Below, piece after piece: positions 4,092 through 23,259 of a stretch of 31,051 bases of DNA. Made by a program: the position numbers and the translations under genes. How positions within the stretch are numbered: the first letter of the stretch is position 1; every line of letters begins with the position of its first letter. Location: positions 1 to 31,051 of IMG/VR virus record IMGVR_UViG_3300020448_000026; one strand, 5' to 3'. Below the pieces are notes generated by a model, which saw nothing but the letters and a program-made list of their open reading frames with translations, was not told the origin of the DNA and did no database searches. The stretch comes from a virus.

Positions 4092-4702
4092 TATTCATTC
4101 AACCCTGATAGACTTTGAACTCTTACTGTATAATCTATTTGTACTAGTCTGTTCAAACTTTTTTGCACTGGATGGAAGATAACATGTGTAAGTAATCTTC
4201 CTGTGCCTGCGGAATCATAACTTACTAATCCTAATTCATCAAACACATACAAACTGTCTGCATTTGTGGCATTATCTACAGCATCTTGTCCTGTTGGTTC
4301 ACCATAGTCTAGTAAACATGTAACCAAAATATCTGTATAGTTTGTACCACTTACATGCCTGGATTCAATTTTATTACGTGCCGGGTCAGTATTGTTTACA
4401 CTTCTATCATCTACAACTTTTACATAAGTTTGGTTATATAAACTAGCATTTGTACCTGTAGAATTAGGTGTTAGATATGTAATAATACCTGTTGGGTCAA
4501 TACTTGTTCCTCCGTTACCAAAAGCCATTTGGTATATGAATCCGGATCCTGCATTTGCTAAACTTTCAGCTAATGAGATACTCATGTTTTCATAGTGAAT
4601 TGCGTTCCTTTTATCAACTAGAATTTCGCCTGATTCAGGATTGTGTATTTTGATATGTCCTTGGAGTAGTACTCCGTTATTTTCTTTAATTTGATCAATC
4701 AT
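4091..4702 (-). CDS. Conserved T4-like virion structural protein (203 aa)
   Basis: Soluble protein with no signal peptide or membrane segment. Motifs seen are GEILVDKRNAIHYENMS (about 25-41), YQMAFGNGGTS, LYNQTYVKVVDD, a LLDYGEP segment, FDELGL, and HVIFHPVQKSLNR (173-185). I recall this pattern from baseplate-region structural proteins of marine T4-like phages but cannot tie it to a T4 gene; it does not resemble T4 gp8, which would occupy this slot in T4. It starts after a short gap carrying an AATAAATA late-promoter motif and an AGGAAA ribosome binding site, and its stop overlaps the fibre gene start, suggesting stoichiometric production with the fibres. A connector between baseplate and fibres is a reasonable guess only. 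Confidence 0.65.
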   Translation of the reverse strand: MIDQIKENNGVLLQGHIKIHNPESGEILVDKRNAIHYENMSISLAESLANAGSGFIYQMAFGNGGTSIDPTGIITYLTPNSTGTNASLYNQTYVKVVDDRSVNNTDPARNKIESRHVSGTNYTDILVTCLLDYGEPTGQDAVDNATNADSLYVFDELGLVSYDSAGTGRLLTHVIFHPVQKSLNRLVQIDYTVRVQSLSGLNE

Positions 4703-4720: not shown

Positions 4721-4728
4721 TATTTATT
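4721..4728 (-). promoter_or_regulatory. Late promoter-like AATAAATA
   Basis: The minus strand reads AATAAATA, fitting the NATAAATA late element described for T4-like cyanophages and one base from the T4 TATAAATA. It overlaps the stop codon of the giant gene and precedes the next ATG by 18 bases, with an AGGAAA ribosome binding site between. The implied leader is very short, so confidence is lower than for the 178 and 23287 sites. Confidence 0.45.
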
Positions 4729-7700
4729 TTGGTAGCTCCACCTTTTCTGCCTTAAAGAAACGTGCTACCGTACTTTCCGAATCATTAAGTGAAATTCCAG
4801 GGTCTGTCCAGCGTTTTCCTTGTCTACGTATGACCTGAATCCTAACATTATTGGCCGGAATGTTGGTTAATGTTAGTACATTGCTGGATCCTGTTACTGA
4901 AAATTCTGCTGGCGATGTTACATCAGCTTCTGGTGAATCTTGGTCTATAGTAGCGTCGAATATACTAATTGCATTCTTTCTTAAACGTTTTCCTGCTACG
5001 AATACCTCAAATTCGTTTACTGAACTTGGTGTAAATCCTAATATAAACGTGCTTGTAGAACCATCACCTGTAAAGTTTTCAGTGATGGTACTATCTGAAT
5101 ATGGAGCAGTTTGCTGGATGTTAGCATTATATACATCACTACCTGTTTCATGTATCTCTGGTGCTCCAGTTCCTAATGTTGCCCTTTGTATTTGTCTAAG
5201 CGTATTACCTGTTTTTACAAGATATTCTATTCTCTCTCCGTTAATAAAAATTATTCCAGGAATACTACTTGTCTTATCAGGTTCAGGAAGACCAGATGCA
5301 TCATCTAAATGTATTTGCTTATCTCTCACTAATAAATCCTGCGTAAGTTTTACTGGTGCTACATCGCCTAATCTTTTGTAAATGTTCCTGTTCAAAATAT
5401 CCTTGAACTGACTAAATCCAAATTTAGGTTGTTGTGGTCCATCACTACTAAATTGTATAAGTTCTATTACATCGTTATCTGCAAATGATCCGTTATATTT
5501 TACAAATAATTGATCATCTGTAAGTTTATAATCTACACTCGGTGTTTGTAAAATACCATTAATGGTAAGCCAAACAAATTGTGCGTCAACAGCCTTAGCA
5601 CGTAATTTTATTAAACCTGCACGTAAATGATTATATTCTATATGATCTGTGCTTCCTACTGTTAATGTTGATCTAGTAACTACATCATAATTTATTCTTT
5701 CAAAGTCTTGTATATCATGTTTGTTAAATGTATAAACTGTTAGTTCTTCACCATATGTTGGGGCTGTGTTAAGTTGTAATTGTGATCCGCTATCAACCCA
5801 TGTGTTTTGATTATCAATTACTTGTATACTTCCAAATGCATAATCTCCATCAGTCCTGATATAAACTTCAAGGGTATCTCCTGCTACACCAACCCCAGGT
5901 TCTAATATCACAGAACTGTTTGCAGGTCTAATATTATATTCAGTTGCAATAGTTAATTCTCTTCCATTTAGCAATACTAACACATCTGAATTATCAAAAC
6001 TTCCTATAGGTCTTTGCCAAATCTCTAAGAAGTATTCTGACTGAAGAGCTTGTACTGTAAACTGTTGATTATATCCTGGATTTAAAATTTTGTTTCCTTG
6101 TTTTACAATTACATTATGGCTATTAGGTTTAGAACTGTAAGGAGTTTTATCTAACGTAAATATTTTAGTTGACCCATCACCGGTAAACTGGTTTACTTCT
6201 AATTTTGAAAAATTATCTACTGCACTATAAATTGCAAAATTAATAATACTATTATCTGGTGGTGCACTACCAAATGATAAAACTGCTTTTGCATCTTCGT
6301 CTGTACTATCAGTACTTGGAATTAAAACTGATTCTACTGCTACGCCGTTTACTGTTGCATAATAATCTAACTTACTTGTATAACTTGCTTTTGTAACAAA
6401 TTGTGTTGTGCTTCCATCACCAATAAACTCGTCAGCTTCAACAACATTTTCTCCATTACCGCTTATAGACAAAATATTTACAGAAGAATTTGCACTAGGC
6501 GGAGTATTCATCCTAACTTTTTTCAATCTATAATCAACAGTATAATTATTTTGATTTTGTATAATGTTATTAATTCTAACAAAAAGTCCATCTTTATTTT
6601 GTGGTTGAATACCAAATAAAAATTCAACTTCCGATCCGTTCGCAGAATATGAATTACTTGATAGTAAACTACCTCCTCCTTTAGGACGATGAAATACTTT
6701 TATGTTTACTGAGTCTTGGACTTGCCCAGGTACTTGCTCCTCGGGTCCTTTACTGGTGGTAGGTGTAACAAAACTATCACCGTCAACAATTATATCTTCA
6801 GGATTAATACCTTTTGCTGTTGTAAATTGTAGATCTCCACCACTTAATAAAGTATCGTAGGATCTAGGATCTGGTAAGAAAGATCCGTCTGATGTTGTTT
6901 TTCTAATTACTACAACATCATCAGCTTTGAAACTTTGGACTTGTTTTACAATAGTAACAGTTTGAGTTGTACCATCTCCGGTAATACTTTGCATTACAGC
7001 ATTTGGATTTGTTTGGCTTGCTGTACCAAAGTTTGGATCATCTATTCTTACACCATTTTTGTAAATATTGTATACTACTCCGTTAACTAAAGGTTTACTT
7101 AATGCAAAAACTTCGGTGCTTCCATCTAGCTGAAATATTTCATCATCAAATAATGTATCAAAAGTATCGTATGTACCGGTAAACCACGCATCTGAATCCC
7201 AACCAGTGCCAGAACCAAAACTATAACTGCTTACTTCAACTCCACCATAATCAACACCATCTAAGACTTGTCCTAATTCTTTACCAAACATTCCAGTTGC
7301 TGGATTATAATAAAGATTGATTCTATCTTGTGCTTGTAATAGATCAGGTGCTTTATCATAACTTATAACTATTGTACTACTTAAACTTTGTGGTAAAGTA
7401 AATGATATTCTACCATAGTTTCTTGTATATCCTTTTGAAGTGTCTTTTATATTAGTAAAGGTATATTCACTACGTAAAGATTCTAGTCCGTCTACTGTAA
7501 CAGTAATTTTTGTAGACTTTAATTGCATAGGCCATTTCAAGTCAAATATTTGTTGATCTAAAGCACTTGTAAATGTTTGTGTTTCATTTAATGTATTGAA
7601 AAGATATACACCAGTTGTTCTATCAAACTTACAGACAACATGCAATGCCCTTGCTTTACCTTTTCCTAATACTGGACTTAATCTTGCTGGTATAGATCCA

Positions 7701-10700
7701 TCAGCTTGTGAACCTTGAATGGTAATTGTTGGCTGTGATAAATATCCGCTACCTGTATTAAGCATTTCAACAGCAGTTAGTTTTCCGTCAGTACCTATGT
7801 ATGTTTTAGCTTGGGCTCCTGATCCACCTCCACCAGTAATTTCTATATTAGGAGGAGCATCATAACCTGTACCTGCATCTGCAATAGTTAATGCAGTCAA
7901 TTCGAACCCAATATTATCTGCCCAATGTTTGCTAGGATAATTTAAAATATCTGATGTACCTGAAACAATTTGATTATCAATTACCTGTACACTTTGAGGA
8001 ATAATTTTTCCAGCATCTGCATTATAGACAGGAGGTAGATCAAAATCTGTAACCGATGTAGCAGATGGATCTATCTTTTCATACGAACTTAAATATTCTC
8101 TAATTTTTGTTCTATAAGGTTTGATCTCTTTTACATAAGATTCATAACTAGATAAATTATCATTTTGGAAATTTACTTTTTCAGATAGGTCACCGATATT
8201 GTGTTTTGCTTTTATGTAACTTGTTTTAAATGCCCAATCAACGTTAGGTTGTTCTGAGAAAACATATCGTAAACTTGCAAAGAATAAATTGTTCCAATGT
8301 ATTGCTAAATCATCTGTAAAAATATTATTTTTAATAATTGATATTATTCTTCTAAATTCTTCTACAGGTTGTGTATCATAAAATATCTTATCAAAACTTG
8401 CACCATCATAAGCAATGTTTTCATTAGATACATCATATAAACTATTTTTAAATTCTATAGTTCCATTTTGTCTACCAATCGTATCATAATTAACTGTATA
8501 ATCTGAAGAAGCTGTATTGCCTGTTTTTTGTAATAACAACCAGCCGCCAGTTCCTACGTTTTTAATTTTTACAACATTACCTATTTCATCTTCTAATCCA
8601 CTTAATTGATAGCTAGATTCAACTGTGAAATCTATAGGAGTAAATTTGTTATAATTTGTTTTATACCAATCTATATATTGCCAGTAAAGATTAACGTCGT
8701 AAGATTGAGTTTTTGTTCTTTGCCATTCACTTCCTGTCCAAGAAAATATAGACCATAATCCGCTTACTGTTTCATCATTTTTAACAAGTACAGAAAATTG
8801 TCTAATACTAATAGTTGGTGCAACATAATTTTGTCCTGCTTTTAAGATTGTTACTGAAGATATTGCGCCTTCTGTATTTAATGTTATACCTAGTTCACAT
8901 CCAGTACCTTGTGTATCACTTATTGTGTATGACGGAGGATTAATATAACCAGCGCCTGGGTCTGTAATGAGAACATTTACAACATTCCCGTTTTCTACTT
9001 CTAATGTTAAAGATGCCTGTTTAGTTTTGGCCACACTTACAAAAGAAAGTTCTGCATATGAGTCGCTTGTAGTATCATATGTGCCGCCAGCAATTCCTGG
9101 TTGAGGATCTATTGCTGTAAGTCCTGATAAGTCTTTATCATCAACAATCAAGTTTGCTTTTAAAACTTTATTAACTCTTTCAATAAATTCTTTTCTTGCT
9201 TCAGTTCTGTTAATAAACCAACTTTGCCTAGGTTCATTTAAATTTCCGTATCTAGACCTCACTGGCAAATTGATATCAGGAACTGGTCTATCTTGGGTGT
9301 CAAAACCAACTAAACTATCAAACCATTTTTGCTCTATATCGGTTCTTGGAACACTTGTGGGTAAACCATCTGTAAGCAATTGATATTCATTGTGTGTATT
9401 CTGTTGCTGGTTTTCTATTGTCCACCAATTAAAACTAATTCCAACATCTTTATCTTTTATTAAAGATTCACAGTTGTATAAGCTGAATCTATTATCACCA
9501 AGAATAGTAACAAACTTATGTCCTATTGAACTAGGATCTGCTATAAATCTTGCAACATCGTAACCTGTTGTAACCCTATTGGGATTTTCTGGTAAAGTTC
9601 TTTTATCTTTTACCCAATAATAATAATAATTTTGAAATGTTTGTGTTGCAATATCATATCTTCTACGTACAGAATATGCAGTATCTCCATATTTAGATGT
9701 TCCGCTTATACCTGACGTCAAACCTGTTTCTGTACCTGCTTGACTATCCCATTCGCTAGGAAGTAGTGTGCTTTCAATCCACTCATATACATCTACAGAG
9801 GTTCCTGTAAATAATTTATTAAAGTTCTGTGTTGATTCTGTAATATCTCCTTGATGATGATTTATAAACCTGGCACTTCCGATATCCCACCAAAGTTTTC
9901 CTATCCATTGTTCAGCAGTATAGTCTAGTGTATTAGCTGTAATGCCAGTTGCTGTGCTTACAGAATATTGTGCTGGGTCATAAGATGTTTTAAAACTTAA
10001 TTCTTGTTCGGCTGGACCTGCAATTTTTCCTTGTAGAGGATCAATGTAATCTAAGTAAGAAACTAAACTATCGTCTGTCTTATTGAACAAGTATATACCT
10101 TTGAACTTGCTAGTATCTGCAGGTAACACAGGTACTCTTGTTTGTGCCCATGTAGTTGTTCCTTCTGGTTTTCTATATTCTGCTACAACTCCTTTATCTT
10201 GTTGATTGTTAATTGTAACAACTTGTTTAGGTAATCCAAGATATATGTGATTATTTGACACTAACATTACACTTCCAAAGTCTTGCGTATCTTTATCATA
10301 TGAAAAATCTTGTCCATATATCAATGTATCGTTTACTGTTTCATATATACTAACAAGTCCGCTTTCATTATCAGATGTACTAAATTCTGTATTAGATGCA
10401 TCAAATACTGTACTTGCAGAATCAAAAGAAGTAATTGTTTTAAGATCGCCTCCTTTAGAAGTTACTGCTAATGTATTTCCGTCGAAGTCTAGTTTGCTTC
10501 CAAACCTAGTGTTTGGTGTTTTATCGATTGGTCTAAGTGTTTGCTTGTAAATGAAGTCTGTACCGGTTTGAATATAAATGTATACACAACCTCCTGCACT
10601 AACCTCATCACTATTGTAAGGCGCTCCTACGGCAACTTTTTTACCATCATTTGATATTGCTATTGAACTTGCATATTCTTCTATTAAATTAAATGGTTCT

Positions 10701-13700
10701 AAAATTTGACTATATTCATAATGATTAAGATTTTTTCTATATACCACAATTTTTCTGTTTGGTATTGAACTATCATTAGTGTTCATATATCTTGCACTTG
10801 CAATCATGACAGATCCGTCTTTGCTTAAATCAAAATCTTCGCCAAATTCTTCAAGTAAGTTTTGTTCTAATACGCTATCTTTCAAAGAGAAACTTGTATC
10901 GTTTGGAACATAGCCTAGTAAATCAACACCTTCTGTTTTTGCAGTCCATTGACTTACAACAAAATTACCAGGTACAAGATTTGTAGTTGCTTCGTAAATA
11001 GTATCTCCTACACGTACTAAATCACCTATGAAATAAGACAATGTATTTTTAAAGAAGCCTCTATATTTGTTTTCTATACCTAATGCCCAATCATCAGTAT
11101 CATTTTTATCAAATATATAAATTCTACCTTCATTCGTTTCGGTCTTATCTCCTTGTGCGTGAACAAATAGTTTGTATGTGTTTGTATCAATTTGTCTAAA
11201 TTTTAATTGGTGTCCAAGACGTCTTCCGTTTGCAGAATTTGGAACAGTATAATAATTAATAGGCTGGAATTGTGATCCTCGTCTTTCATAAATTGCAACT
11301 GTTCCTTCGTTGCTAATGTTTGAAGAAGTACCATTTATATCAAGTGGAATATTATACGTTCTGGTCCAATCAAGATTTAAAGGACTAGGAGGATTGTTTG
11401 TATCTAAAACTCCTTCTAAAGTATTTGAACTGTATATCCAATATTCTAAATCTTGTAAAAAATCAGTAGTTGGTATTGGAATATTTGTTCCTTTATCTAC
11501 AACAATTAATGGTCCTGATACACTATCTTCCATATGAGTACTATTAATAGGACCCACTGTTCTAACAGTTGAATCATTTTCAACAAATGTTAAATTACTT
11601 GCTTCACCAAAGTCACTTCCTTTTGCCCAAGTACCGCTTTTATTTTTTAAGTAAAATCTTGCTGTAGCAAACGATCTTTCTATAAATGCAACAGTGGCAG
11701 TTGATCCTGTGTTTGTGTCTGTAACTGTTTGGCCTACTATAGGTAAAAACGGTTCGCCACTCAGGTCAAAGTTAGTCAATCTTGCTGTTGTCCAACCATT
11801 CCATTTATCATTTACTGTAAACTCTGTGTCATTAAGATAAGTGTAATCTAATCCTAATGGAGAAGGGTCTTGCCTAATATCATTTACATATAAATCATTA
11901 AGCCAAAATCTAAATTTGTTTCCGACTTGGAGGCTTGCTCCGTGTCCAGCAGGAGTTCTAATTACCCATCTAGAATCTAATATATTATTTTGTGTAGCAC
12001 CTTGTACATGACTTAATACTCCAAAATACGAAACTCTAGTTGGATTTGTAACAACATCTTCGTTTTGTTTTGCATCTAAAATATTTGTAAACGTAGGATC
12101 ATTTACAGAATTTCCTTGGATTGTAATATTTTGCACAACAAGATTTGCATTATATTCAAAAATGTTTGAAGTGTTAAAAGAACTACCAACGTTTACATAC
12201 CACCAACCTGCATGATAGTTGTCTTCAATATTTTGCTCTCTAGTATAATCTCCCACAGTAATGCCGCCTAAGGAAATTGTATCAGTTGCATTTAAAGAAC
12301 CATTTATATTGTTTAGATATAATTGCAAGTTATTATCGTTATCTATGTACCTATGTTGTACTGTTGCCCTTGCTGTAGAAGTTGTAATTTCATCACCAAC
12401 ATTTGGTGTTGCTAAAGCACTTATTATTTTTACAACTACATCTACCTTGCCTACTATTGTGTGTTGGCCATTAATTAATGTTTCTGTTAAAACAGAATCT
12501 CCGTTGAAAGGAGAAATACCAGCTAATGTTGATGTAGTATATCTGTTCCATTTTAGAGTTAAAATATCTCCTGGTTTTGTTCCTTCAAATTGTTCTTTTT
12601 CTGCCCTAATTAAAATATGATCTGTTGGTGCAAGTGGTATGGATGGATTACCTCTCATCATGTATACTATTCCAGGATAACGAGGAGTTGATGTAGAATT
12701 ATACTCATCACCTTTGCTTTGTTGATTAGATGCATGATTAAAAAATGTTTGAACTTCTTCTGCTAATACTTGTCTCTTAGCTTTCCATAACTGTTGGCTA
12801 TAAAATACGATATCGTTTGTCTCATAGGTTACTGAAGCACGATAATCACCTTTAAGTTTAGATTTTACATTTGATGCATTTGGTGATCCTATTGCCAAAT
12901 ATTTTCCATCTGGACTTATTACTGCACTTGTTCCAAAAGCCCCATTGGAATCATATAGATTGACAGTTTCGTCAATTTGTTGTAATTGTGCAAATTCTGT
13001 GTTATCACTAGGTCTCGTTAAAACATATACAGTTCCGTTTAGATCTTTTGGTGCAGTAATTGTCATGAGATTGTTATTATCTGAAACACTTAAACTAGCT
13101 CCAAAGTCTTTTTCGGTGCTATCAAATATTCCAGCAGTTTTGTTTATAATTTCTGGTTTAAGTTCAAAAACCTGTTTGCTTTTTAAAACTACCCATTTAC
13201 CCGTATCGTCATCATCTACCCAAATAGTATCGCTTTGGGCATTAGTTCCTGCAATAGTAAATTCTAACTGTTTTCCATCACGTTGTATATTATTATTTGC
13301 TTCAGTTAAGTTTGAAACTCTTACTGCCTTAAATCTAGTAATAAATCCTGTGTTAGCTGTGTAAGTATCTTCTGTTGCTGGAACATCTGTAACCGAATCT
13401 AAAGACAAAACATTAAGTTCCACCTTGTTAATAGTATAAAATCCATCAGTTCCTGTAGCAACATCATTTATTCCTATTACATCTCCTTTTTCAAATGCAA
13501 AGTATTTGTTTAATGTTACAGTGAATATATTACTAGCAGACGCTGTAATACTTGTTATTTTTAAATCTGTTGACATGTACTTGTATACACCCCAAGTCAA
13601 TTGGGTTTTATCTTTTGCTGTCCAAATATAAGATCCTTGTTGTAATAATGAAATATCTTCATTAATCAATAAATTATAATTTAGTATACTTGTATACACA

Positions 13701-16700
13701 TCTGCAGGATTAACATATCCTGATGAAGGCACGTAAAAATTATCATCATTGTAATATTTTGTAGGAAAAGGCTTATGATTATAATCTTTGGATTTTACAA
13801 AAATATTATTTCTATCTAACTTATAAATTAAAGAAGTGTCTTGCGGATCAACTGTATCCACAAGTTCAACTTGTTGTGGGTCTAATCTATATTTTGATTC
13901 GTCCAATAGTACTTCAAATACGTCATCACCTTCTGTTGCTCCATATCGTCCGGCTCGCACAGCCCATTCTTCGTAAAATTCTAAACTATCTCTATTAGCA
14001 CTTCCTAATTTGTCAAAAAGTTTGTTGAGAACATTTTTTGTTCCTTTATCTTGTATCATTCCTTGGAAAAATTTATATTGACTTACTTCATCAGGAATAA
14101 TATTTTCAAGATACTTTCTTTTCTGATAAGAAATTAAATGTTGTGCAAGTTTTTGTTGTTCGGTATCAAAGTTATCACTATCTAAATCGTAAAAATCTCC
14201 GAATTGTTTTGCTTTATAATCAAAATTAGGTAACAACCCTTGTGCCGGTTTATCGGCTAGTATGACAAACTGTTTGTCATCAAATTTATCAGATCCTGTT
14301 ACATTATTTTTTGCGACATAATAATATTGCTTATATTTTACTAGGTCGCCTATCTTATAATCCTGCCATGCTGTCCATTCATTAATAACTGCGTCTTGGA
14401 AAATGAAACCAGGAACATTTAATGAGCCGTTCCAGTCGCTTGATCTATAACCTTTTACCTTAATACGCTCTTGTCTATATCCTTGAGCTCTATTGTAAAT
14501 TTTATCACTGAATACTGTTTGATTGTCTATCACTATAGCATGTTCTGTTTGTGCTATAGGAAGTTTTAATTGATATATTCCTTCTTGTGTATTTTTTACT
14601 CTAAGCCCAAATTTGTTACTATTATCTCTTTCTGTGGTAGCAAAATCTGCCAATAGTCTTTTACCATCAGCTTGTAATAAACTATAGTCGTAAAAATTAT
14701 CATAGATGTTGTCCACAACGCTATATTTCTTTTCAAAAGCTATTTCTCTAGCACTTGGGCTTAAGGTTAATACAGTACCTGCCTCCCATGCTTGGGTTGA
14801 CCAAAACATAAATTCTTTTGCTGACAACTGCCAGTTTTCTATTTCTTTTAATGTGTCGTTATATTTTTCAAATGTAAACCCTACTGTTTCTAAGTATTTT
14901 GAATAACAAAGTAAAAAATCTACCACGTCTTGAATTTCAGTATACACAGTACCATAATTCACTGTAGTTGAAACCGTTTCGAAATTATTTGTAAACCTAG
15001 CTGACACACCTCCTACAATAGGAAGCTGATCCATTTTTTGGAAATTACTTGCTAAAAAATTTCCTGTGTTTGTAATTTTTACTCTATAAAAAGCATTATT
15101 AAATTTTACAATTTCGCCGGGCTCATATGTTTGGGAAGAAGAAAAATTGACAAAGTCTTCACTGACTCCGCCTACATTAATAAGAGGATCATTTCCTTTT
15201 TTCAGTGCCGGAAAAATTTTGAATCTAGGATTCTCTTTATCGTATCCTGATACTTTAAATCCTCTAGCTAACTTTTCAATTATGACTCCACTATAGGTAT
15301 AAACATTTAATGGCACACTTTTCGTTAATACGATTTTGTAATTTTCCTCAGGAACAAAAATATTTCCTTCATTTGTTGGTGTTCTACTATCTAGTATTAA
15401 TTTAAATTTACTCTTTTGGGTAAAGCCTCCTATTTTACTTCCTAATTTGTTTTCTAATGATTTTAATTTGTTTTGGTATTCAGTGAACTGTAAACTTTCG
15501 TTTGAGGCTAGATACCCTTGCATGTAATTTATTAATCCACCTGTGTTGACTCTTGTAGCATCTGCTGAACTATTTGGAAATTGTATCTGGCTTAATTCAA
15601 TACGCTTTGAGGTATCAGTATACACTAACTGATTTGCCATATTTCTTTTAATTCTACTTCTATCAAATGCTATGCCTATAAATTGTGCAGGCTCGCTCAT
15701 TGCCCATGCTTTGATAAGTGCGAAAGGATAATGAGAACTTCTTCTCCATGCTGTTTCGACAGGACCTTCATCTCCAAAAACAAAATCATTTTTGTATTCA
15801 GGATCTGGAGAATATAGTGCATATCCAGTGTCATTGGGACTTATTAAATTTCCTTTTTCATCAACTGGTATATATTTGTAAATATCTGGATTTTTAAATT
15901 TGTTTCTATAGGAAATTTTTGTGTTAGGTTCTCTGATTATTCCATTACTCATATCTTCCCATAATAGCAAATTATCTTTAGTATAGGGTGCTGTACCATA
16001 TACGGTGTCAAACCATGTAGGTTTAATTTTTAAACCTAATATTTCCCATGGATGCGAATGGGGTCTATCAGTATTATATAAATCTTTGTAAATTGCTCTC
16101 CAAAAGCCCGGTAACCTGTTATTATAAGGATCAGCCGCAAAGCTGTAATTGTAACTAAAACTATTTCCTCTTGAATATACATTATTTGTAGTATAATCTG
16201 GATTAGCAACAGCTTGTGACCAATCGTTAAATTCAGGCACCATTAAAGAAGAAATGTGATCTCTCGAAAATCCTGTATCTCTATATCTACTATCTACAAA
16301 GTCTGCTATGTCAATTATACTTTCTTCATAGGACAGTTTTAAATTATTATAAATTCTTTTTTCTAAATCTAATAAAAGTAGATCTCTAAAATCACCGAAA
16401 CAGCTCCATAATGATCCATCGTGTCCTTGTAATACGGGCTTAGATGAAGGCCATGCTGTAAAGTCATTTGTATCATATGTTGCATGATTCATTGACCCGC
16501 TTGGCATAAAAAAGATTCTATTATCTCCTTTAAACACATGTGTATGAGCAAGTCCTGAACCGCCACTAGTTTTGTCATATGCTTGTGCTGATTGTTCATC
16601 TGTAAATAAAGGATAAAACCATCCTAACTTGTCAGTATACGATTTTCCTGATGTTTGATCTATACCATATATTTTATATGGTCCTGTTGAATCAGGTACC

Positions 16701-19681
16701 GCATTAACATAAGTGTCATCTAAAGATATTTGTGGTTCAAATTTAGGATACAATCCAAGTTTGGTAGGAGTAGGAGGTACCCACGAACCATCAGTGCTTT
16801 CGTATTCATAAATTTTTAATATTTGTCCTGCTGTAACAGGTTTAGTAATTGTTACAAATCCGTCTGTGCTTATAGTATATTCTTTATCTTTGATTAGTTG
16901 TTTTTCATCCAAATACACTAAAACAGCATTTTCATTTAGTTCTGTAAAACTAACAGGCCTTGTAAGTGCAAATATAGTTTGTGATGCATCTTCTATCTCG
17001 TAATTTAAAAGTGTATCGCCTCCAAAAGGAACCATATCACTAAAATAAAATGGATCTTTATTTGTTTTTGTTTGACTCAAATTTAAAAGTATTCTATCAA
17101 CATGCTGTTTATCCTCAGCTTCAAAACCTAAATCATTTGCTACTCTTAGAAATTCTCTTTTGAATTTTATATATTCTCTGCCAGAATATCTAATTGCTTC
17201 TATCAAATCATATTCTTTATCAGTAAGATTAAAAAGTGCTAGATTGATAGGTCCTGAATGTTGCACAAATTTCAAACCATATTTAGATACTTGCCCTAAA
17301 TCTCCTAGGTTACTTTTACCAGGAAACTGTCCTGAAAAACCAGGAGCATTATCTACTATGCTATCAACGTGATCTAATACTTCTCCCAAAGTAAAATCAG
17401 TAATATTTTCATTCATAGGATTTTTTTCAAAATTTATTGGAAACTTGTAAAAACCTAATGCATTTTTTGGAGTTGCACTTGTTGTTTCTATCACTAATTT
17501 TTGATCAACTATCAAGTCTGTGTAAAATCTTACGTATGCATATTTGTTTATTCTATCAATAGTGTAATCTACATTTTCTGTTTTTCTTTTATTATCAACA
17601 TAAACTTTTACTCCAAGATCATTTAAATCTCCACTATTGATATAAACATCAATAATAAAGTTGTTTGTCCTTGGACCTGTTGTTATTTGTTGTACCACAG
17701 GTTGTTGAGATTTTGCAGGAGCTTTTGTCCAACCTGATACACTCGAATACGATGTCCTTGCTGTGTATTTTCTTAATAATGCAGTATCTGTCCTTACAGA
17801 CAAAACATCAGTAGATACATCATATTGATATGTGTCTCCTAAAAGATTAAAGTCGAAAGTTATATCACCACTGTTTTCTATGGTTCTATATGATAAGGCA
17901 AATCCTAATTCAGTATCTGCTGTCCCTGTACCTACTTTATAAGAAAAAACCTTTGTTCCAGTAAATGTGCTTCCTGATAATGTATTCAATGATGTACCTG
18001 CATCATTATACAGATCAAACAATGGTTGCTGGTTAGTGGCTATTTTGTCTTGTCCTTGCCGCCAGGCCGTTCCTGTATAATAAAACATTTTACCTTTAAA
18101 TTTGTCTCCACCATTTACAAGGACTGTTTCGTTTGTTAACGGCGTGGTATCTGTTGTTTCTTTTAAAGCTATTTGTGTTTTATTATTCTGTTTTATAAAT
18201 GTAACTTCATAAATTTTACCAGCTACTAATGTGTCTGGATCGGCTGTAAATAAGACTCTCATTCCAGATACTAACTGTGTACCATCTACAAAATAACCTT
18301 CTTGTCCTTCAATATCCGAAAACACATCTGTAGTGACTGTGTCAACTAAATCAACGTTTGCTTTTGCTTCTGTTCCAAAATTGTAAAGTTTTAAACCTGC
18401 CTCAAATTCTATAATAGGTCTTGTGGCTCTAAATGCTTGATCAATATTTACTGTGGTATTGTTAATTTTTGCTGTTGTTTCAATTACTGCTTTATTTGTC
18501 CATAAATTGTATCTGGACCATTGATTTCTATCTTTACTTGCTTTGTTAATTACCAAGTAATCTTTTTTATTTGCGTAAGATATAGCATCATCAAACGGCA
18601 AAGCATCAAAACTATTACCATCAAATTGTGTAGTAACATCTTCAAGGTAACTTGCACTTATTCCTATATCATTTTCTGAAATAAGTTTTATTTCATCTCC
18701 TACACCTTCAACGTACCATTGTCCAGTTGCATACTTTGTTGGTTCTATTGTTCCGTAAAATTCAACTTTCATGCCATTAGCTAATTCATAGCCATTTTGC
18801 ATTGTATAATTTTTTCTACCTAATATATCTTCTTCAACATTTAGATATGTGTTGTCAATAATGTTTTTTATAATAATTAACCCTGATCCTTCAACATCAT
18901 TTCCGTTAACGTAATATAATGTATCAGGTGCTTCTAAATCTATTTTCCAAGTAATTGTGCCATTTTCTATTTTTTGTTGGCTTACCCCGGTTGTATATAA
19001 GTTAGTATCATCCTCAATTTCGTTTGATGTCCTAATAGTAAACGGCATATTTTCGGCATCTATATCAAAAGTATATGTTTGACCTTTGTATAAAGTTAGA
19101 GTAGGATTACTCACAGGATTGTCTTCTGCAAATATGTAAGCATCATTATCTGTATTATCTTGTTTTCTTACCTTTAATGTGCTTTTTATTTCTCTTGATG
19201 TTCCGTATACAGGAATCGTGTTTGGTCCCATTGGTAACCAATAGTATTCTCTAAAGTTTACAAACTTATCCCAATTGATATGGGGATCCCATGCATAATA
19301 TTCTTGTCTACTTAATTTACTTAGATTAGATACGTCACCTCCACGTATTCTTATGCTGTTATAATAATCTCTATAATCTCTATATAAAGTTGTATTACCT
19401 ATATCATCAGTGACTGTTGCGATTGGTTCTAACTGATAACTTTCTCTCTCGGTAGATATATCTGAGAGATAATTGTCTTTGGCATTCCAGGCTTTTGCAT
19501 CCTTACGGCCTATGAATCCATCGACTTTTTCAACCACTCCTGGTTGCATAAGTTGATCTAAAGTGCTACTTAGAAATTTGTTGTTTGCAGTTGTGCGAAA
19601 ATAACGGGGAAGTAAGTCAGATGAACTACGCTTGGTTTCATCCTCACCGTTTATTGGAATTGGTTTTTCGTCTTGAGCCAT
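4724..19681 (-). CDS. Giant modular baseplate-region structural protein (4985 aa)
   Basis: A single uninterrupted frame of nearly 15 kb, coupled to gp6 by TAATG. The N-terminus (LLPRYFRTTANNKFLSSTLD, about 23-42) resembles openings of large structural proteins in marine T4-like phages. Approximate modules: a cupredoxin-like beta domain (192-273); a HTHVF / MPSGSMNHA segment (1036-1070); a HPWEILGLKIKPTWFD segment (1206-1243); four short aromatic G-D/E-x-V modules resembling CBM5/12 (about 1515, 1767, 2284, 2880); a helical region (1847-1917) faintly like T4 gp7; seven FG-GAP-like blades (2190-3172); two G-x-GY repeat blocks (3567-3624, 3927-3988); a helical and aromatic block ending in IKPYRTKIREYLSSY (3625-3880); and GDGST beta repeats in the last 800 residues. 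It occupies the position of gp7 in T4 (1032 aa), but homology to gp7 is not shown. Probable roles are wedge scaffold plus surface adhesion. The ribosome binding site is weak, so expression probably depends on coupling to gp6. Confidence 0.85.
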   Translation of the reverse strand: MAQDEKPIPINGEDETKRSSSDLLPRYFRTTANNKFLSSTLDQLMQPGVVEKVDGFIGRKDAKAWNAKDNYLSDISTERESYQLEPIATVTDDIGNTTLYRDYRDYYNSIRIRGGDVSNLSKLSRQEYYAWDPHINWDKFVNFREYYWLPMGPNTIPVYGTSREIKSTLKVRKQDNTDNDAYIFAEDNPVSNPTLTLYKGQTYTFDIDAENMPFTIRTSNEIEDDTNLYTTGVSQQKIENGTITWKIDLEAPDTLYYVNGNDVEGSGLIIIKNIIDNTYLNVEEDILGRKNYTMQNGYELANGMKVEFYGTIEPTKYATGQWYVEGVGDEIKLISENDIGISASYLEDVTTQFDGNSFDALPFDDAISYANKKDYLVINKASKDRNQWSRYNLWTNKAVIETTAKINNTTVNIDQAFRATRPIIEFEAGLKLYNFGTEAKANVDLVDTVTTDVFSDIEGQEGYFVDGTQLVSGMRVLFTADPDTLVAGKIYEVTFIKQNNKTQIALKETTDTTPLTNETVLVNGGDKFKGKMFYYTGTAWRQGQDKIATNQQPLFDLYNDAGTSLNTLSGSTFTGTKVFSYKVGTGTADTELGFALSYRTIENSGDITFDFNLLGDTYQYDVSTDVLSVRTDTALLRKYTARTSYSSVSGWTKAPAKSQQPVVQQITTGPRTNNFIIDVYINSGDLNDLGVKVYVDNKRKTENVDYTIDRINKYAYVRFYTDLIVDQKLVIETTSATPKNALGFYKFPINFEKNPMNENITDFTLGEVLDHVDSIVDNAPGFSGQFPGKSNLGDLGQVSKYGLKFVQHSGPINLALFNLTDKEYDLIEAIRYSGREYIKFKREFLRVANDLGFEAEDKQHVDRILLNLSQTKTNKDPFYFSDMVPFGGDTLLNYEIEDASQTIFALTRPVSFTELNENAVLVYLDEKQLIKDKEYTISTDGFVTITKPVTAGQILKIYEYESTDGSWVPPTPTKLGLYPKFEPQISLDDTYVNAVPDSTGPYKIYGIDQTSGKSYTDKLGWFYPLFTDEQSAQAYDKTSGGSGLAHTHVFKGDNRIFFMPSGSMNHATYDTNDFTAWPSSKPVLQGHDGSLWSCFGDFRDLLLLDLEKRIYNNLKLSYEESIIDIADFVDSRYRDTGFSRDHISSLMVPEFNDWSQAVANPDYTTNNVYSRGNSFSYNYSFAADPYNNRLPGFWRAIYKDLYNTDRPHSHPWEILGLKIKPTWFDTVYGTAPYTKDNLLLWEDMSNGIIREPNTKISYRNKFKNPDIYKYIPVDEKGNLISPNDTGYALYSPDPEYKNDFVFGDEGPVETAWRRSSHYPFALIKAWAMSEPAQFIGIAFDRSRIKRNMANQLVYTDTSKRIELSQIQFPNSSADATRVNTGGLINYMQGYLASNESLQFTEYQNKLKSLENKLGSKIGGFTQKSKFKLILDSRTPTNEGNIFVPEENYKIVLTKSVPLNVYTYSGVIIEKLARGFKVSGYDKENPRFKIFPALKKGNDPLINVGGVSEDFVNFSSSQTYEPGEIVKFNNAFYRVKITNTGNFLASNFQKMDQLPIVGGVSARFTNNFETVSTTVNYGTVYTEIQDVVDFLLCYSKYLETVGFTFEKYNDTLKEIENWQLSAKEFMFWSTQAWEAGTVLTLSPSAREIAFEKKYSVVDNIYDNFYDYSLLQADGKRLLADFATTERDNSNKFGLRVKNTQEGIYQLKLPIAQTEHAIVIDNQTVFSDKIYNRAQGYRQERIKVKGYRSSDWNGSLNVPGFIFQDAVINEWTAWQDYKIGDLVKYKQYYYVAKNNVTGSDKFDDKQFVILADKPAQGLLPNFDYKAKQFGDFYDLDSDNFDTEQQKLAQHLISYQKRKYLENIIPDEVSQYKFFQGMIQDKGTKNVLNKLFDKLGSANRDSLEFYEEWAVRAGRYGATEGDDVFEVLLDESKYRLDPQQVELVDTVDPQDTSLIYKLDRNNIFVKSKDYNHKPFPTKYYNDDNFYVPSSGYVNPADVYTSILNYNLLINEDISLLQQGSYIWTAKDKTQLTWGVYKYMSTDLKITSITASASNIFTVTLNKYFAFEKGDVIGINDVATGTDGFYTINKVELNVLSLDSVTDVPATEDTYTANTGFITRFKAVRVSNLTEANNNIQRDGKQLEFTIAGTNAQSDTIWVDDDDTGKWVVLKSKQVFELKPEIINKTAGIFDSTEKDFGASLSVSDNNNLMTITAPKDLNGTVYVLTRPSDNTEFAQLQQIDETVNLYDSNGAFGTSAVISPDGKYLAIGSPNASNVKSKLKGDYRASVTYETNDIVFYSQQLWKAKRQVLAEEVQTFFNHASNQQSKGDEYNSTSTPRYPGIVYMMRGNPSIPLAPTDHILIRAEKEQFEGTKPGDILTLKWNRYTTSTLAGISPFNGDSVLTETLINGQHTIVGKVDVVVKIISALATPNVGDEITTSTARATVQHRYIDNDNNLQLYLNNINGSLNATDTISLGGITVGDYTREQNIEDNYHAGWWYVNVGSSFNTSNIFEYNANLVVQNITIQGNSVNDPTFTNILDAKQNEDVVTNPTRVSYFGVLSHVQGATQNNILDSRWVIRTPAGHGASLQVGNKFRFWLNDLYVNDIRQDPSPLGLDYTYLNDTEFTVNDKWNGWTTARLTNFDLSGEPFLPIVGQTVTDTNTGSTATVAFIERSFATARFYLKNKSGTWAKGSDFGEASNLTFVENDSTVRTVGPINSTHMEDSVSGPLIVVDKGTNIPIPTTDFLQDLEYWIYSSNTLEGVLDTNNPPSPLNLDWTRTYNIPLDINGTSSNISNEGTVAIYERRGSQFQPINYYTVPNSANGRRLGHQLKFRQIDTNTYKLFVHAQGDKTETNEGRIYIFDKNDTDDWALGIENKYRGFFKNTLSYFIGDLVRVGDTIYEATTNLVPGNFVVSQWTAKTEGVDLLGYVPNDTSFSLKDSVLEQNLLEEFGEDFDLSKDGSVMIASARYMNTNDSSIPNRKIVVYRKNLNHYEYSQILEPFNLIEEYASSIAISNDGKKVAVGAPYNSDEVSAGGCVYIYIQTGTDFIYKQTLRPIDKTPNTRFGSKLDFDGNTLAVTSKGGDLKTITSFDSASTVFDASNTEFSTSDNESGLVSIYETVNDTLIYGQDFSYDKDTQDFGSVMLVSNNHIYLGLPKQVVTINNQQDKGVVAEYRKPEGTTTWAQTRVPVLPADTSKFKGIYLFNKTDDSLVSYLDYIDPLQGKIAGPAEQELSFKTSYDPAQYSVSTATGITANTLDYTAEQWIGKLWWDIGSARFINHHQGDITESTQNFNKLFTGTSVDVYEWIESTLLPSEWDSQAGTETGLTSGISGTSKYGDTAYSVRRRYDIATQTFQNYYYYWVKDKRTLPENPNRVTTGYDVARFIADPSSIGHKFVTILGDNRFSLYNCESLIKDKDVGISFNWWTIENQQQNTHNEYQLLTDGLPTSVPRTDIEQKWFDSLVGFDTQDRPVPDINLPVRSRYGNLNEPRQSWFINRTEARKEFIERVNKVLKANLIVDDKDLSGLTAIDPQPGIAGGTYDTTSDSYAELSFVSVAKTKQASLTLEVENGNVVNVLITDPGAGYINPPSYTISDTQGTGCELGITLNTEGAISSVTILKAGQNYVAPTISIRQFSVLVKNDETVSGLWSIFSWTGSEWQRTKTQSYDVNLYWQYIDWYKTNYNKFTPIDFTVESSYQLSGLEDEIGNVVKIKNVGTGGWLLLQKTGNTASSDYTVNYDTIGRQNGTIEFKNSLYDVSNENIAYDGASFDKIFYDTQPVEEFRRIISIIKNNIFTDDLAIHWNNLFFASLRYVFSEQPNVDWAFKTSYIKAKHNIGDLSEKVNFQNDNLSSYESYVKEIKPYRTKIREYLSSYEKIDPSATSVTDFDLPPVYNADAGKIIPQSVQVIDNQIVSGTSDILNYPSKHWADNIGFELTALTIADAGTGYDAPPNIEITGGGGSGAQAKTYIGTDGKLTAVEMLNTGSGYLSQPTITIQGSQADGSIPARLSPVLGKGKARALHVVCKFDRTTGVYLFNTLNETQTFTSALDQQIFDLKWPMQLKSTKITVTVDGLESLRSEYTFTNIKDTSKGYTRNYGRISFTLPQSLSSTIVISYDKAPDLLQAQDRINLYYNPATGMFGKELGQVLDGVDYGGVEVSSYSFGSGTGWDSDAWFTGTYDTFDTLFDDEIFQLDGSTEVFALSKPLVNGVVYNIYKNGVRIDDPNFGTASQTNPNAVMQSITGDGTTQTVTIVKQVQSFKADDVVVIRKTTSDGSFLPDPRSYDTLLSGGDLQFTTAKGINPEDIIVDGDSFVTPTTSKGPEEQVPGQVQDSVNIKVFHRPKGGGSLLSSNSYSANGSEVEFLFGIQPQNKDGLFVRINNIIQNQNNYTVDYRLKKVRMNTPPSANSSVNILSISGNGENVVEADEFIGDGSTTQFVTKASYTSKLDYYATVNGVAVESVLIPSTDSTDEDAKAVLSFGSAPPDNSIINFAIYSAVDNFSKLEVNQFTGDGSTKIFTLDKTPYSSKPNSHNVIVKQGNKILNPGYNQQFTVQALQSEYFLEIWQRPIGSFDNSDVLVLLNGRELTIATEYNIRPANSSVILEPGVGVAGDTLEVYIRTDGDYAFGSIQVIDNQNTWVDSGSQLQLNTAPTYGEELTVYTFNKHDIQDFERINYDVVTRSTLTVGSTDHIEYNHLRAGLIKLRAKAVDAQFVWLTINGILQTPSVDYKLTDDQLFVKYNGSFADNDVIELIQFSSDGPQQPKFGFSQFKDILNRNIYKRLGDVAPVKLTQDLLVRDKQIHLDDASGLPEPDKTSSIPGIIFINGERIEYLVKTGNTLRQIQRATLGTGAPEIHETGSDVYNANIQQTAPYSDSTITENFTGDGSTSTFILGFTPSSVNEFEVFVAGKRLRKNAISIFDATIDQDSPEADVTSPAEFSVTGSSNVLTLTNIPANNVRIQVIRRQGKRWTDPGISLNDSESTVARFFKAEKVELPK
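4975..7140 (-). repeat. GDGST-type beta repeats in the giant protein C-terminus
   Basis: Within the giant gene a degenerate protein repeat recurs, opening with F-x-GDGST-x-x-F-x-L and leading into a V-x-V-x-G strand: FQLDGSTEVF (about residue 4181), SITGDGTTQTV (4230), FIGDGSTTQF (4415), FTGDGSTKIF (4495) and FTGDGSTSTF (4862). Such repeats are common in phage fibre and baseplate proteins and look like stacked small beta domains. The DNA copies have diverged, so these are ancient duplications rather than recent ones. Confidence 0.65.
7720..8980 (-). repeat. Two G-x-GY glycine-rich repeat blocks in the giant protein
   Basis: Two blocks inside the giant gene, at about 8810-8980 and 7720-7900, share the pattern aGxGYxxPPxxxI, a Gly-rich turn, then GxxxxVxxLxxGxxYxxPTIxI. 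The first reads GAGYINPPSYTI then GQNYVAPTISI, the second GTGYDAPPNIEI then GSGYLSQPTITI. Each block is itself an internal duplication. They flank the conserved helical and aromatic segment at residues 3625-3880. Function unknown. Confidence 0.6.
10165..13110 (-). other. Candidate seven-bladed FG-GAP-like beta-propeller in the giant protein
   Basis: Seven repeats of an FG-x-x-hydrophobic-x-hydrophobic-S-x-D/N-x-hydrophobic-A-hydrophobic pattern, mostly followed by G-x-V-Y-hydrophobic, occur between residues 2190 and 3172: FGASLSVSDNN, FGTSAVISPDGKYLAIGSP, LGHQLKF, FGEDFDLSKDGSVMIASA, ASSIAISNDGKKVAVGAP, FGSKLDFDGNTLAVTS, and FGSVMLVSNNHIYLGLP. Pairing strands GTVYVL, GRIYIF, KIVVYR, GCVYIYI, GLVSIYE and GVVAEYR follow most of them. 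The spacing, including AxGxP endings, is like the FG-GAP repeats of integrin-type propellers. CBM-like modules sit near 12780-12840 and 10980-11041, inserted between blades. The fold is inferred from pattern only. Confidence 0.5.
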
Positions 19682-22600
19682 TAGTAACCGTAACCCCCAC
19701 CGCCGCTAGAACCTCCTCCTGATCCGGAAGAACCACCTGAACCCGATGATCCGGAAGAACCACTGCTACTACTTGTTGAACTGGTTGAACTTGTCGTAGT
19801 AGAGGATGTGGTTGTTGTAGCAGATGTGGAGGAAACAGTCAATGCTTGACTTTGTATGCCGGTATTCTGTTGTGTTGATGCAGTAACAACTGAACCTGAT
19901 GCTTGTATTCTTGATGCAGTTACTGAATCTATTACTTCAACATCTGTTACTGTAGCATCACTGACAAAAATTTCATCGTTCTCGCTCTTAATTTCGTACA
20001 AACTACCAAAACTTTGTGTACCTTGTTTAGGAACAATTAAAAAATTTACTACGTCAGGTGCAAGTGTGTTCATAACGTATGTTGCTAGTTCTGTAAAATG
20101 GAATGTTTCTCCAAAATCCCAATTTTGTAAAGAAAAATATCTGTTAATAGATTCTACTATCCTAACTTTTATATCATTATCGTTAATTACATTTTCACTA
20201 TTTTTCACAACCTTGAAAGTAGCTTGTAAATTTTCCTCTGCATGAGATCCAAAAAGTATTTTGTATTTGACAGGATGATAAATTACTTCATCACTGATTG
20301 CTTTAACATTGTTTATGTCTTGTCCATACTGTTGGAATAAATTATCTACGCTTGGTGGCAACGGTCTTGTTGATAAAGTGCCTGCAAGATATTTTCTAAA
20401 CTGTGTATCATAACTTTGTGTTAGCATATACACGTCTATTATATTACTTGCACTAGGGTCAATCCTATTGGATTCGTCTGCACTATGCACGTATTGGAAT
20501 TTAAGTTTATCTCTTCCTACGTGTGCTTCATAGTCGCTTGATAATGAAAGATTACCGCCGCTTAATACTTTAAAGTTATTTTGATCAACGATATAAAATA
20601 CTGTAGGGTCTGTACTATATTGACTATAAGCACCAATTTCCGTTTCTGTATTTTTGACTACAATGGAAGAGCCTGTAGACAAATAATTATACTTGCTAAA
20701 TCCTTGATCTGTTAATATTCTTTTTAGAAAAATATATTTGCTGGTTGAATTTACTGTAGGAGCTACAACGTTATCAAAAATATCCGGATCATCTACTGAT
20801 CCGTCATCATTCAAATCAAAGAAACTTACCTCTACTTTTTTGCTATTAACATAGCCGTCTGCATTTCTGAAGTCTTTAACTATTTCCCAATCTATATCAT
20901 TATTAAATGCTGATAAAGAATCTGGTTGTGTGTTAAAATTCATTATACCAATTTTATCTTTGACTAGCTGTCCTGTAGAAGAATCATAAATTTTATTTTG
21001 GTTGTCAAAGTAAAAAGATAATTCACTATCACTTTCAAAAATATATCTTAAGCCTCTATTAGTAATTGTGTATTTTTCTCCGTTTGTTTGGAATAATAAA
21101 ATCCAACTAGCATCTAATTTATTATTTGTAACATCACCAGTTTTACCATTACTAAACTGATCGTTAACATTTAAGTTTTCATTTATAATTACCCGCCAAA
21201 TTCTATTAACCTGATCATAACGCAATCCAAAAGTTTTGTAAGCAAAAACTTGATCAATAATTTGTGATCTTACGTCAGCTGTTAGATCTTTTACTAATTT
21301 AGGTTTTACTTCATCTAAAATACTATTATTTGCAAGTGTTTGATTAAACACTATAGGTCCTATACCTGTAGTGCTATTAACCGATGTTCCAGCACCATCA
21401 ACACTTATAACTTTTACCCATTTGTAAGAACTTGCTCCTTTGGCTGTTGCGTCAGATGTTAATTCTCCTTCGCCAACAAAATAAAATCCTGCCGGCGGTT
21501 TAAATTTAAGCAATGCACCTGCTTCAACATATTTTAATGAACCTCCGGTAAATGTACCAACTTGAAATGGAACATTACTTGAATTAGTAAAATATCCTGT
21601 TGAGGTATTAGTTCCTTTAGTAGATTGTACCCAAGTTGCGTTTAGATCACTAACAATAATTTTTGCATAATTACCAAAATAAAAATTACTAATTGCACGA
21701 CTTTGTATTGTAGGCAGTATAGTATTTTCTATCTGCCCTTCGATATCAGTTTGTGTAGCAAAAGTAAAAGTCTTTTTAGCTTCATAAGGTTCTCTATATA
21801 GTACACCATCTGAACCATACAAGTTTGTACTAGAATATTTTCCTGTAACATCTTTTAAATCAAAGTACCTACTTATACCACTAGCAACTCTATTTGTTGC
21901 TTTTACTTTAATTATTTCTTGATTTGATGTCAACGGATAAACATTATAGTCTTCTCCAGTTACCATCCTATTTTGTGTATAATATGTTTGAGGTGCATAG
22001 TTTCTAATACTTGCACTAGTTTCTGAAATACTTGAATTTGTTACTGTATCTTTTAATTCAACAGATACTGTCATAGTTTCTGTTTTTCCTTGTCTACTTG
22101 TATAATCAAAACTAAACTGTATATCAGTTAACTCTTGAGGATTAATACGCATTGTTCTGTTTGCACTAGTTCTGTAAAATGCTCTAAAGTTACCACTCGG
22201 TAAATTTCCAAATGTTCCATCTGCAAATACTAAAGTAATTTCATCATTTCCTCTAGTTTGAACTGTGTAAAAGTCCCTTACGCCTTTTGTTAATGCATTA
22301 TAGATTGCATTATTACCTTCCGTGGCAGGTACTTTTGTCCATAACTTTTCTACGTTTCCACCAGTGTCTAATTTAAATAACCAAACGTCTGTATTATTGA
22401 TATTTTCTGCTTCAATATTGATTCTTTGATTTGCTTGAGGACTTGCCACTTCAAAATCACCAGTTGTTAAATTTCCTTGTCTGAAGTGTAAAAAATATCC
22501 TGTGTTAGAACTACCGTTTCCTCTACCATCTTCTCTATAGATCATTTGTAGCTTATTGCCTGGTAATGGCATTTCTTCTTCTAGTGTAGAATTATCTAAA

Positions 22601-23259
22601 TTAATATCTGTTGATACCATTTCAAATATTGTTGATATTCCGTTTACTCCTTTACTAAATGTGTAAACTGGAACGTCTGTGTTGTTTGATTGAAATCTAT
22701 ATGTTTGTGTCAAAACGCTGTTAATTCTAGTAGACTTTCCTGGCTTACCTATTGTGTTGTTTTCTGGCAAAGCGGCATTCACAACTCTTTTAAATTGTTC
22801 AGCCCAATTTGTATTACTAGGATCATTCCAAACAATAGTTTGTTCTGCTAAATTAATACCATTACTATCAACAATAGATTCAGTTGTTGACACTGATTCA
22901 AATTTTAACAAGCCATTAGCGGCTTGATTACGCTTAGGATTGTATGATAATAATCTAGCAAGCCGTAAAACAGATTCCCTTCTTTCTGCTAATTCTAAAT
23001 AATTTTCTCTAGCATTAAGATCAACTCTATATGCTATATTTTGTCCTAAGAATGCAATTAGATCTATTAATGCTAGGTACTCTGACGTTTCTATATAATC
23101 ATTGAAATCTTCAGGATAATTATTACGCAGATAGTTAATCATTGCCCTACGTAAGGTATCAAAATCATAAGACGCAAACTCGGCGTTTCTAAAACTTTGA
23201 TAGACCTTGGTCCAATCTTCTGCTAATAATAGTCTATTTTGTCTATCGGTAGATGACAT
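19681..23259 (-). CDS. gp6: Baseplate wedge protein gp6 (1192 aa)
   Basis: In T4, gp6 forms the iris-like ring of the wedges and joins neighbouring wedges in the inner baseplate. The family N-terminus is clear: DWTKVYQSFRNAEFASYDFD (about 15-34), then YIETSEYLALIDLIAFLGQN (55-74) and ENYLELAERRESVLRLARLL. The C-terminal conserved part includes YHPVKYKILFGSHAEEN, NWDFGETFHFTELATYVMN (near 1044) and FGSLYEI. At 1192 residues it is far longer than T4 gp6 (660), with the extra length mainly in beta-rich middle segments and a 51-residue Ser/Thr/Gly tail (1142-1192). It follows a CATAAATA late promoter and an AAGGA ribosome binding site, and its stop overlaps the giant gene start as TAATG. Confidence 0.9.
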   Translation of the reverse strand: MSSTDRQNRLLLAEDWTKVYQSFRNAEFASYDFDTLRRAMINYLRNNYPEDFNDYIETSEYLALIDLIAFLGQNIAYRVDLNARENYLELAERRESVLRLARLLSYNPKRNQAANGLLKFESVSTTESIVDSNGINLAEQTIVWNDPSNTNWAEQFKRVVNAALPENNTIGKPGKSTRINSVLTQTYRFQSNNTDVPVYTFSKGVNGISTIFEMVSTDINLDNSTLEEEMPLPGNKLQMIYREDGRGNGSSNTGYFLHFRQGNLTTGDFEVASPQANQRINIEAENINNTDVWLFKLDTGGNVEKLWTKVPATEGNNAIYNALTKGVRDFYTVQTRGNDEITLVFADGTFGNLPSGNFRAFYRTSANRTMRINPQELTDIQFSFDYTSRQGKTETMTVSVELKDTVTNSSISETSASIRNYAPQTYYTQNRMVTGEDYNVYPLTSNQEIIKVKATNRVASGISRYFDLKDVTGKYSSTNLYGSDGVLYREPYEAKKTFTFATQTDIEGQIENTILPTIQSRAISNFYFGNYAKIIVSDLNATWVQSTKGTNTSTGYFTNSSNVPFQVGTFTGGSLKYVEAGALLKFKPPAGFYFVGEGELTSDATAKGASSYKWVKVISVDGAGTSVNSTTGIGPIVFNQTLANNSILDEVKPKLVKDLTADVRSQIIDQVFAYKTFGLRYDQVNRIWRVIINENLNVNDQFSNGKTGDVTNNKLDASWILLFQTNGEKYTITNRGLRYIFESDSELSFYFDNQNKIYDSSTGQLVKDKIGIMNFNTQPDSLSAFNNDIDWEIVKDFRNADGYVNSKKVEVSFFDLNDDGSVDDPDIFDNVVAPTVNSTSKYIFLKRILTDQGFSKYNYLSTGSSIVVKNTETEIGAYSQYSTDPTVFYIVDQNNFKVLSGGNLSLSSDYEAHVGRDKLKFQYVHSADESNRIDPSASNIIDVYMLTQSYDTQFRKYLAGTLSTRPLPPSVDNLFQQYGQDINNVKAISDEVIYHPVKYKILFGSHAEENLQATFKVVKNSENVINDNDIKVRIVESINRYFSLQNWDFGETFHFTELATYVMNTLAPDVVNFLIVPKQGTQSFGSLYEIKSENDEIFVSDATVTDVEVIDSVTASRIQASGSVVTASTQQNTGIQSQALTVSSTSATTTTSSTTTSSTSSTSSSSGSSGSSGSGGSSGSGGGSSGGGGYGY
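19684..19836 (-). repeat. Low-complexity Ser/Thr/Gly tail of gp6 with a 16-base direct repeat
   Basis: The last 51 codons of gp6 encode a Thr/Ser run passing into Ser/Gly and ending GGGGYGY. The DNA is noticeably richer in G+C than the surrounding genes. A 16-base direct repeat (gatccggaagaaccac on the plus strand) occurs at 19721-19736 and 19748-19763, which suggests recent slippage-driven growth. Function unknown; a flexible linker or a tethering peptide are possible. Confidence 0.8.

Follow-up and report, generated by a model that had tools for sequence, protein, structure and literature searches.

A single very long gene lies directly after gp6 in the locus described here, in the slot where phage T4 encodes gp7 and gp8 as separate proteins. 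The locus raises the question of whether such a gene is real, how it came by its length, and what its product does in the baseplate. The window that we analysed is a 31,051 bp stretch of one metagenomic contig, an IMG/VR virus record, that contains no N letters. The giant ORF fills about half of it, as the original prediction had stated: it runs over positions 4724..19681 on the minus strand, begins with ATG, and comprises 4985 codons with no internal stop in the ORF listing. The computed product has a mass of 559 kDa, a pI of 4.8 and six cysteines, and it matches PHROG 10938 ('virion structural protein') with an E value of 2.6e-301 over five stretches. A megablast search of the window against phage records gave no match, nor did a phmmer search of the whole protein against the PDB. 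Huge phages have been reported to encode proteins as long as 7,694 aa (PMC7162821), and thus the size of this protein is no record.

The giant gene is a genuine, single and intact gene that is under purifying selection along its whole length. An IMG/VR scan with residues of about 1097-1766 as the query found 120 relatives, 80 of which were kept. The homologue is one ORF in all but one of these 80 loci; complete copies have 4897-5033 aa, and in the remainder the frame runs off the edge of the retrieved stretch. The sole split copy (634 + 4112 aa; L038, positions 6723-21658) may be genuine or may stem from an error in sequencing or assembly, and more distant relatives measure 4748 and 5060 aa. 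Compared with a relative that is 78% identical (L008), dN/dS is 0.115 overall and 0.07-0.22 across 500-codon blocks; for the first 2745 codons, comparison with another relative (L007) gives 0.05, and synonymous sites are close to saturated. The low dN/dS in every block, coupled with the single ORF in independent contigs and isolates, demonstrates that this frame is neither a chance opening nor an assembly join of separate genes. An assembly error and consistently split homologues, the two findings that the original prediction had named as refuting it, did not occur: about 80 IMG/VR contigs and the isolates carry the same single ORF, and splitting is confined to one contig.

The gene order in the window is gp53, hub, gp5, (PAAR), gp25, gp6 and the giant gene. 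The gp25-type wedge protein or sheath initiator (PF04965) is encoded at 23324..23758 on the minus strand. On the same strand, the gp6-type baseplate wedge protein of 1192 aa is encoded at 19681..23259; it matches PHROG 10646 ('baseplate wedge subunit') with E 1.3e-290 and PHROG 219 with E 1e-20. The stop codon of this gene and the ATG of the giant gene share one base (TAATG). Overlaps of this type are the usual arrangement for coupled translation, and the two genes are probably translationally coupled. Downstream, also on the minus strand (4091..4702), is a conserved gene for 203 aa (PHROG 11259) that is present in three environmental contigs (G001, G005 and G006), so the predicted placement between gp6 and a 203-residue gene holds. 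A one-gene homologue directly follows the gp6-type gene in the window and in nine isolates, and the isolate phages keep the gp25/gp6-giant order with small local changes.

Several other features of this cluster were observed. The C-terminus of the gp6-type protein (window 19684-19815), just before the giant gene, is a low-complexity tail rich in Ser, Thr and Gly that is found in many marine relatives and is absent from the freshwater ones looked at. The gp5-type hub protein (window 24253-26949) carries an endolysin/Glyco_hydro_19-like domain C-terminal to the gp5 trimerisation region. Two consecutive fibre-like proteins of 693 and 609 aa (window 181-4091) have similar N-termini, the first carries a Phage Tail Collar domain, and their genes are possibly duplicates. 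In one environmental contig (G001, also L108; about 7100-26700), an open frame of 6509 aa occupies the same slot and is followed by the same 203-aa-type gene.

The giant protein adds a marine member to a family that is already known, though uncharacterised, from giant tailed phages of the RaK2/PA5oct type. The smallest isolate homologues are those of 121Q (3323 aa), RaK2 (3326 aa), GAP32 (3341 aa) and Munch (3342 aa). Those of Vibrio phage 2.275.O (3771 aa), SCTP-2 (3807 aa) and PA5oct (3857 aa) are intermediate, and those of Atu_ph07 (4449 aa) and Phosso (4555 aa) are the largest. Scans with the RaK2 and Phosso proteins as queries yielded no new relatives. The length comparison that the original prediction had proposed therefore gives single genes throughout, from 3323 to 6509 residues, in which entire domains are present, missing or of different size within a core of constant length.

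This core emerged when the window protein was aligned with its homologues from the nine isolates, with 24 marine relatives of full length and with distant environmental relatives. Blocks of near-constant length were found in every lineage aligned at about residues 1-160, 400-890, 1100-1500, 1560-1960, 3190-3540 and 3640-3900, with PA5oct departing from constant length in 400-890. The N-terminal core (residues 1-160; 19202..19681, on the minus strand as are all segments of the protein given below) has a conserved LLPxxFRTxxNxKFLxxTLDQL motif and may supply the helices of a core bundle. Conserved core A (residues about 400-2080; 13442..18484) is common to the isolate jumbo phages, with 890-1100 variable. 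It includes a strongly conserved helical segment, IGYQxRxYLxN...SQxxFYxGxIxxKGT (residues 1815-1930; 13892..14239). Core B consists of residues 3190-3540 (9062..10114) and 3640-3900 (7982..8764).

Between these blocks, lengths differ widely, the values in gapped regions being approximate and dependent on the alignment. Region 160-400 comprises 240 residues in the window protein versus 39 in RaK2, and region 2180-3190 comprises about 1010 residues versus about 70. Likewise, region 3540-3640 has 100 residues in the window protein and 1-7 in SCTP-2 and PA5oct, and the regions at 1500-1560 and near 1766-1810 vary in size as units between lineages. Whole-domain differences inside a core of constant length indicate growth by insertion rather than by end-to-end fusion. 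By these sequence comparisons, the giant protein has grown by nested domain insertion.

The largest of these insertions is predicted to be a seven-bladed FG-GAP beta-propeller of the integrin-alpha type (residues 2170-3180; 10142..13174). An AF2 model of residues 2070-3215 has a mean pLDDT of 83.6, and VIA-align matches it to integrin alpha-M (Z 31.8, rmsd 3.4, 353 residues aligned) and to other integrin alpha chains (Z 28.5-31.6). Foldseek gives an integrin as its best match (E 5.4e-8). Independently of the model, a sequence profile of the propeller matches integrin alpha-6 (E 3.7e-5). Furthermore, the segment scores 32 bits against Pfam FG-GAP_2 (cut-off 23), a profile to which 35 of 36 members have a hit with E of 0.01 or lower. 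Reading of the sequence places seven FG-type motifs near residues 2193, 2249, 2824, 2946, 3003, 3060 and 3135. The propeller that the original prediction had called probable is thus supported by both the model and the Pfam match. The calcium motif D-x-[DN]-x-[DN]-G does not occur anywhere in the giant protein.

The propeller itself is interrupted after its second FG-GAP motif by a block of about 510 residues (2275-2785; 11327..12859), which contains one CBM-like and two VGQT modules. This insert comprises about 95 residues in two freshwater relatives (L098 and L103) and about 700 in Atu_ph07 and Phosso. The series of insert sizes, together with the absence of the propeller from RaK2, requires at least two nested steps. 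Integrin alpha-I domains sit between blades 2 and 3, and the position of the phage insert is suggestive of the same site.

Other modules were recognised by profile and fold comparisons, and their identities are predictions of this kind. Residues of about 184-275 (18857..19132) form a mobile domain in common with the cyanophage fibre protein PSSM2_028 (hmmsearch E 5e-18), which we take to be cupredoxin/YHYH-like. An internal profile search detected four CBM5/12-like (chitin-binding type-3) modules, at residues 1507-1554 (15020..15163), 1766-1810 (14252..14386), 2275-2320 (12722..12859) and 2866-2916 (10934..11086). The first two are also seen as folds in an AF2 model of residues 1090-2090, with modest scores (Z 6.9, rmsd 1.4, 44 aligned with Milano 8fqc_P1; Z 5.4, rmsd 1.4, 45 aligned). 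Phages 7-7-1 and Milano have modules like the fourth in their tail fibre/spike proteins (E 1.1e-5 and 9.8e-5). For Pfam CBM5/12, 36 of 45 and 25 of 36 members match, with the score of the window protein itself below the cut-off. Because folds of this kind are found in phage fibres and in capsid proteins of T4 as well, the modules do not imply sugar binding. Chitinase or deacetylase activity was considered and rejected, the hits falling on these CBM-like modules.

Two GY-type beta modules (residues 3560-3632; 8786..9004, and 3929-4000; 7682..7897) have a related module in depolymerase tailspikes, with the first also found in Dpo31/Dpo36 (E 0.0033) and the second detected by internal profile. 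PHROG 460 ('head closure Hc2') matches residues 3925-4011; because this match falls on the mobile second GY module, a neck function was rejected. The C-terminal part (residues 4001-4985; 4727..7681) contains, according to the internal profile search, fibre-type repeats with GDG(S/T) motifs. Carbohydrate-binding-like modules and fibre-type beta repeats had both been expected, and these comparisons bear out the two expectations at the level of profile and predicted fold.

How might such a chain serve the baseplate? A wedge scaffold of the (gp6)2-gp7 type has been described as well conserved across contractile systems, T4 and T6SS among them (PMC10457771), so that some protein is to be expected in the place of gp7. 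Convincing matches to gp7, gp8 or the gp7-helical profile were absent from PA5oct, Atu_ph07, SCTP-2, RaK2 and four environmental contigs (153-262 kb, possibly incomplete), with T4 positive in the same search. The giant protein is thus the only candidate found for the role of gp7. We favour, with a probability of roughly 0.55, a reading that makes it the third component of the wedge in the baseplate of a RaK2/PA5oct-type jumbo myovirus, with a core joining gp6 and gp25 and with projecting modules for binding and signalling. In other contractile tails, proteins of the gp7 class join gp6 and gp25; the constant core would do the same here, with probably one copy per wedge and six per virion. The inserted domains (the propeller, the CBM5/12-like modules and the fibre-type C-terminus) would project from the wedge as an exposed arm. 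These modules may attach to surface glycans or carry the fibres whose genes lie immediately downstream, and might pass a contact signal to the wedge. Copy number, the gp7-like contact with gp6, glycan binding and signalling are features that we infer, the gp7-like role being suggested by gene order and the absence of a canonical gp7 rather than by homology.

The gp25/gp6-giant order in the window and the isolates supports the wedge role, and the detection of homologues in virions and the adhesion-type modules also speak for this reading. Counting against it, there is no significant sequence match to gp7, and the most gp7-looking segment is modelled with low confidence and without a gp7 hit. 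Specifically, the segment at residues 1815-1930 had by eye seemed like gp7 or tail protein I, an HMM test was negative, and we keep it as a lead only. In the fold search with the AF2 model of residues 1090-2090, T4 gp7 was not among the matches listed, a result that is still compatible with gp7 likeness. Tail_P2_I (PF09684) matched neither the relatives nor T4 and is hence uninformative. A more ambitious version of the wedge reading, which we regard as speculative, is that a gp7-equivalent subunit has become an arm for receptor binding. The six copies, together about 3.4 MDa, would present integrin-like propeller heads that, with their lineage-specific inserts, recognise the host surface and are wired to the contraction trigger in one chain.

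A competing explanation that we consider less probable than the wedge reading, yet the strongest of the alternatives, is that the giant protein, instead of being a wedge scaffold, docks on the baseplate as a peripheral adhesin or as part of a fibre network, and that a small undetected protein does the job of gp7. Much of the chain does consist of fibre- or adhesin-type beta modules, and it bears no gp7 signature. However, the core is the best conserved part and stays near-constant in length while the adhesion modules come and go, the gene is always beside gp6, and the related genomes offered no other gp7 candidate.

Presence in the virion has been shown by others for homologues of the window protein. 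The record of PA5oct gp355 carries an ESI-MS/MS note (virion protein), and gp236 of CBB was detected in virions with 21 unique peptides and 7.7% coverage (PMC5259590, Table 4). For phAPEC6, virion mass spectrometry recovered 17 peptides (7.6% coverage) of the 381.88-kDa gp245 (PMC7247149, Table 1), which is listed after a 131-kDa wedge protein, gp244 (PMC7247149); from its size and position, gp245 is probably a member of the family. We consider it unlikely that the protein is translated whole and then cleaved into several working pieces in the virion. A 559-kDa chain is a demanding product, and the published peptide coverage of homologues is low (about 7.7%) and does not establish full length, but no sign of cleavage was found and the genes of relatives are not split.

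Still less probable is the fusion of T4-type gp7, gp8 and adhesin genes into one chain, the origin proposed in the original prediction and left unsupported by our results. The slot is indeed that of T4 gp7 and gp8, and two VGQT modules (residues 2416-2475; 12257..12436, and 2641-2700; 11582..11761) resemble domain V of gp7 with hhalign E values of 0.0014 and 0.0012 (reversed controls 0.31 and 0.39). This weak match was the one part of the suggested profile comparison that gave a signal: nothing else was significant in profile-profile tests against T4 gp7, gp8 and gp10, in which reversed-profile controls scored like most windows. Pfam Gp7_helical, Gp7_5th and Gp7_6th likewise gave no match to the giant protein at E up to 1, and gp7 proteins themselves score well. 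No gp8 (PF09215) match was found in the giant protein, and the four contigs and four isolate genomes of relatives gave none either, with T4 positive. Against fusion, then, there is no gp8 or gp10 homology, the VGQT modules (E about 0.001) sit in the variable insert and outside the core, the lengths differ through internal insertions, the propeller being absent from RaK2, and no family of split homologues was seen. Least credible of all is an assembly or annotation artefact: the window does come from a single metagenomic contig, but the same single ORF in independent contigs and isolate genomes and purifying selection throughout refute this reading.

Through these analyses, an anonymous 'virion structural protein' gains an anatomy made up of a conserved core and named modules. 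The insertion series, from RaK2 without a propeller through freshwater phages with a small insert and marine phages with a large one to a relative of 6509 aa, makes it testable how contractile-tail baseplates gain adhesion-type domains inside a wedge-position protein. Giant structural proteins are thus common in marine jumbo phages.

Comparison with known systems places the protein as follows. T4 gp7 follows gp6 as the giant gene does, and its domain V is the part that resembles the VGQT modules, but gp7 has only 1032 aa and its three Pfam profiles do not extend to the giant protein. In the neighbouring hub protein, the endolysin-like domain is C-terminal, whereas the lysozyme domain of T4 gp5 is central. 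The propeller shares with integrin alpha chains the seven FG-GAP-type motifs, the predicted fold and the large insert after the second motif, and differs from them in having no DxDxDG motif, in an identity of about 15%, and in its location within a phage virion protein. RaK2 gp465, 121Q gp582, GAP32 gp230, Munch gp262 and CBB gp236 (PHROG 10938) occupy the same slot after gp6 as single genes with the same core; these RaK2-like homologues (about 3323-3342 aa) have no propeller, lack most of region 160-400 and have shorter CBM regions. PA5oct gp355, SCTP-2 gp140 and Vibrio phage 2.275.O gp424 share core and slot with the window protein at 23-29% identity, but have 3771-3857 aa and a propeller region that is reduced or absent. 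Finally, although Agrobacterium phage Atu_ph07 gp180 and Sinorhizobium phage Phosso gp294 (4449 and 4555 aa) are only 23-24% identical to the window protein and have a C-terminal part about half as long, they share with it both the core and a propeller-sized region that carries a large insert.
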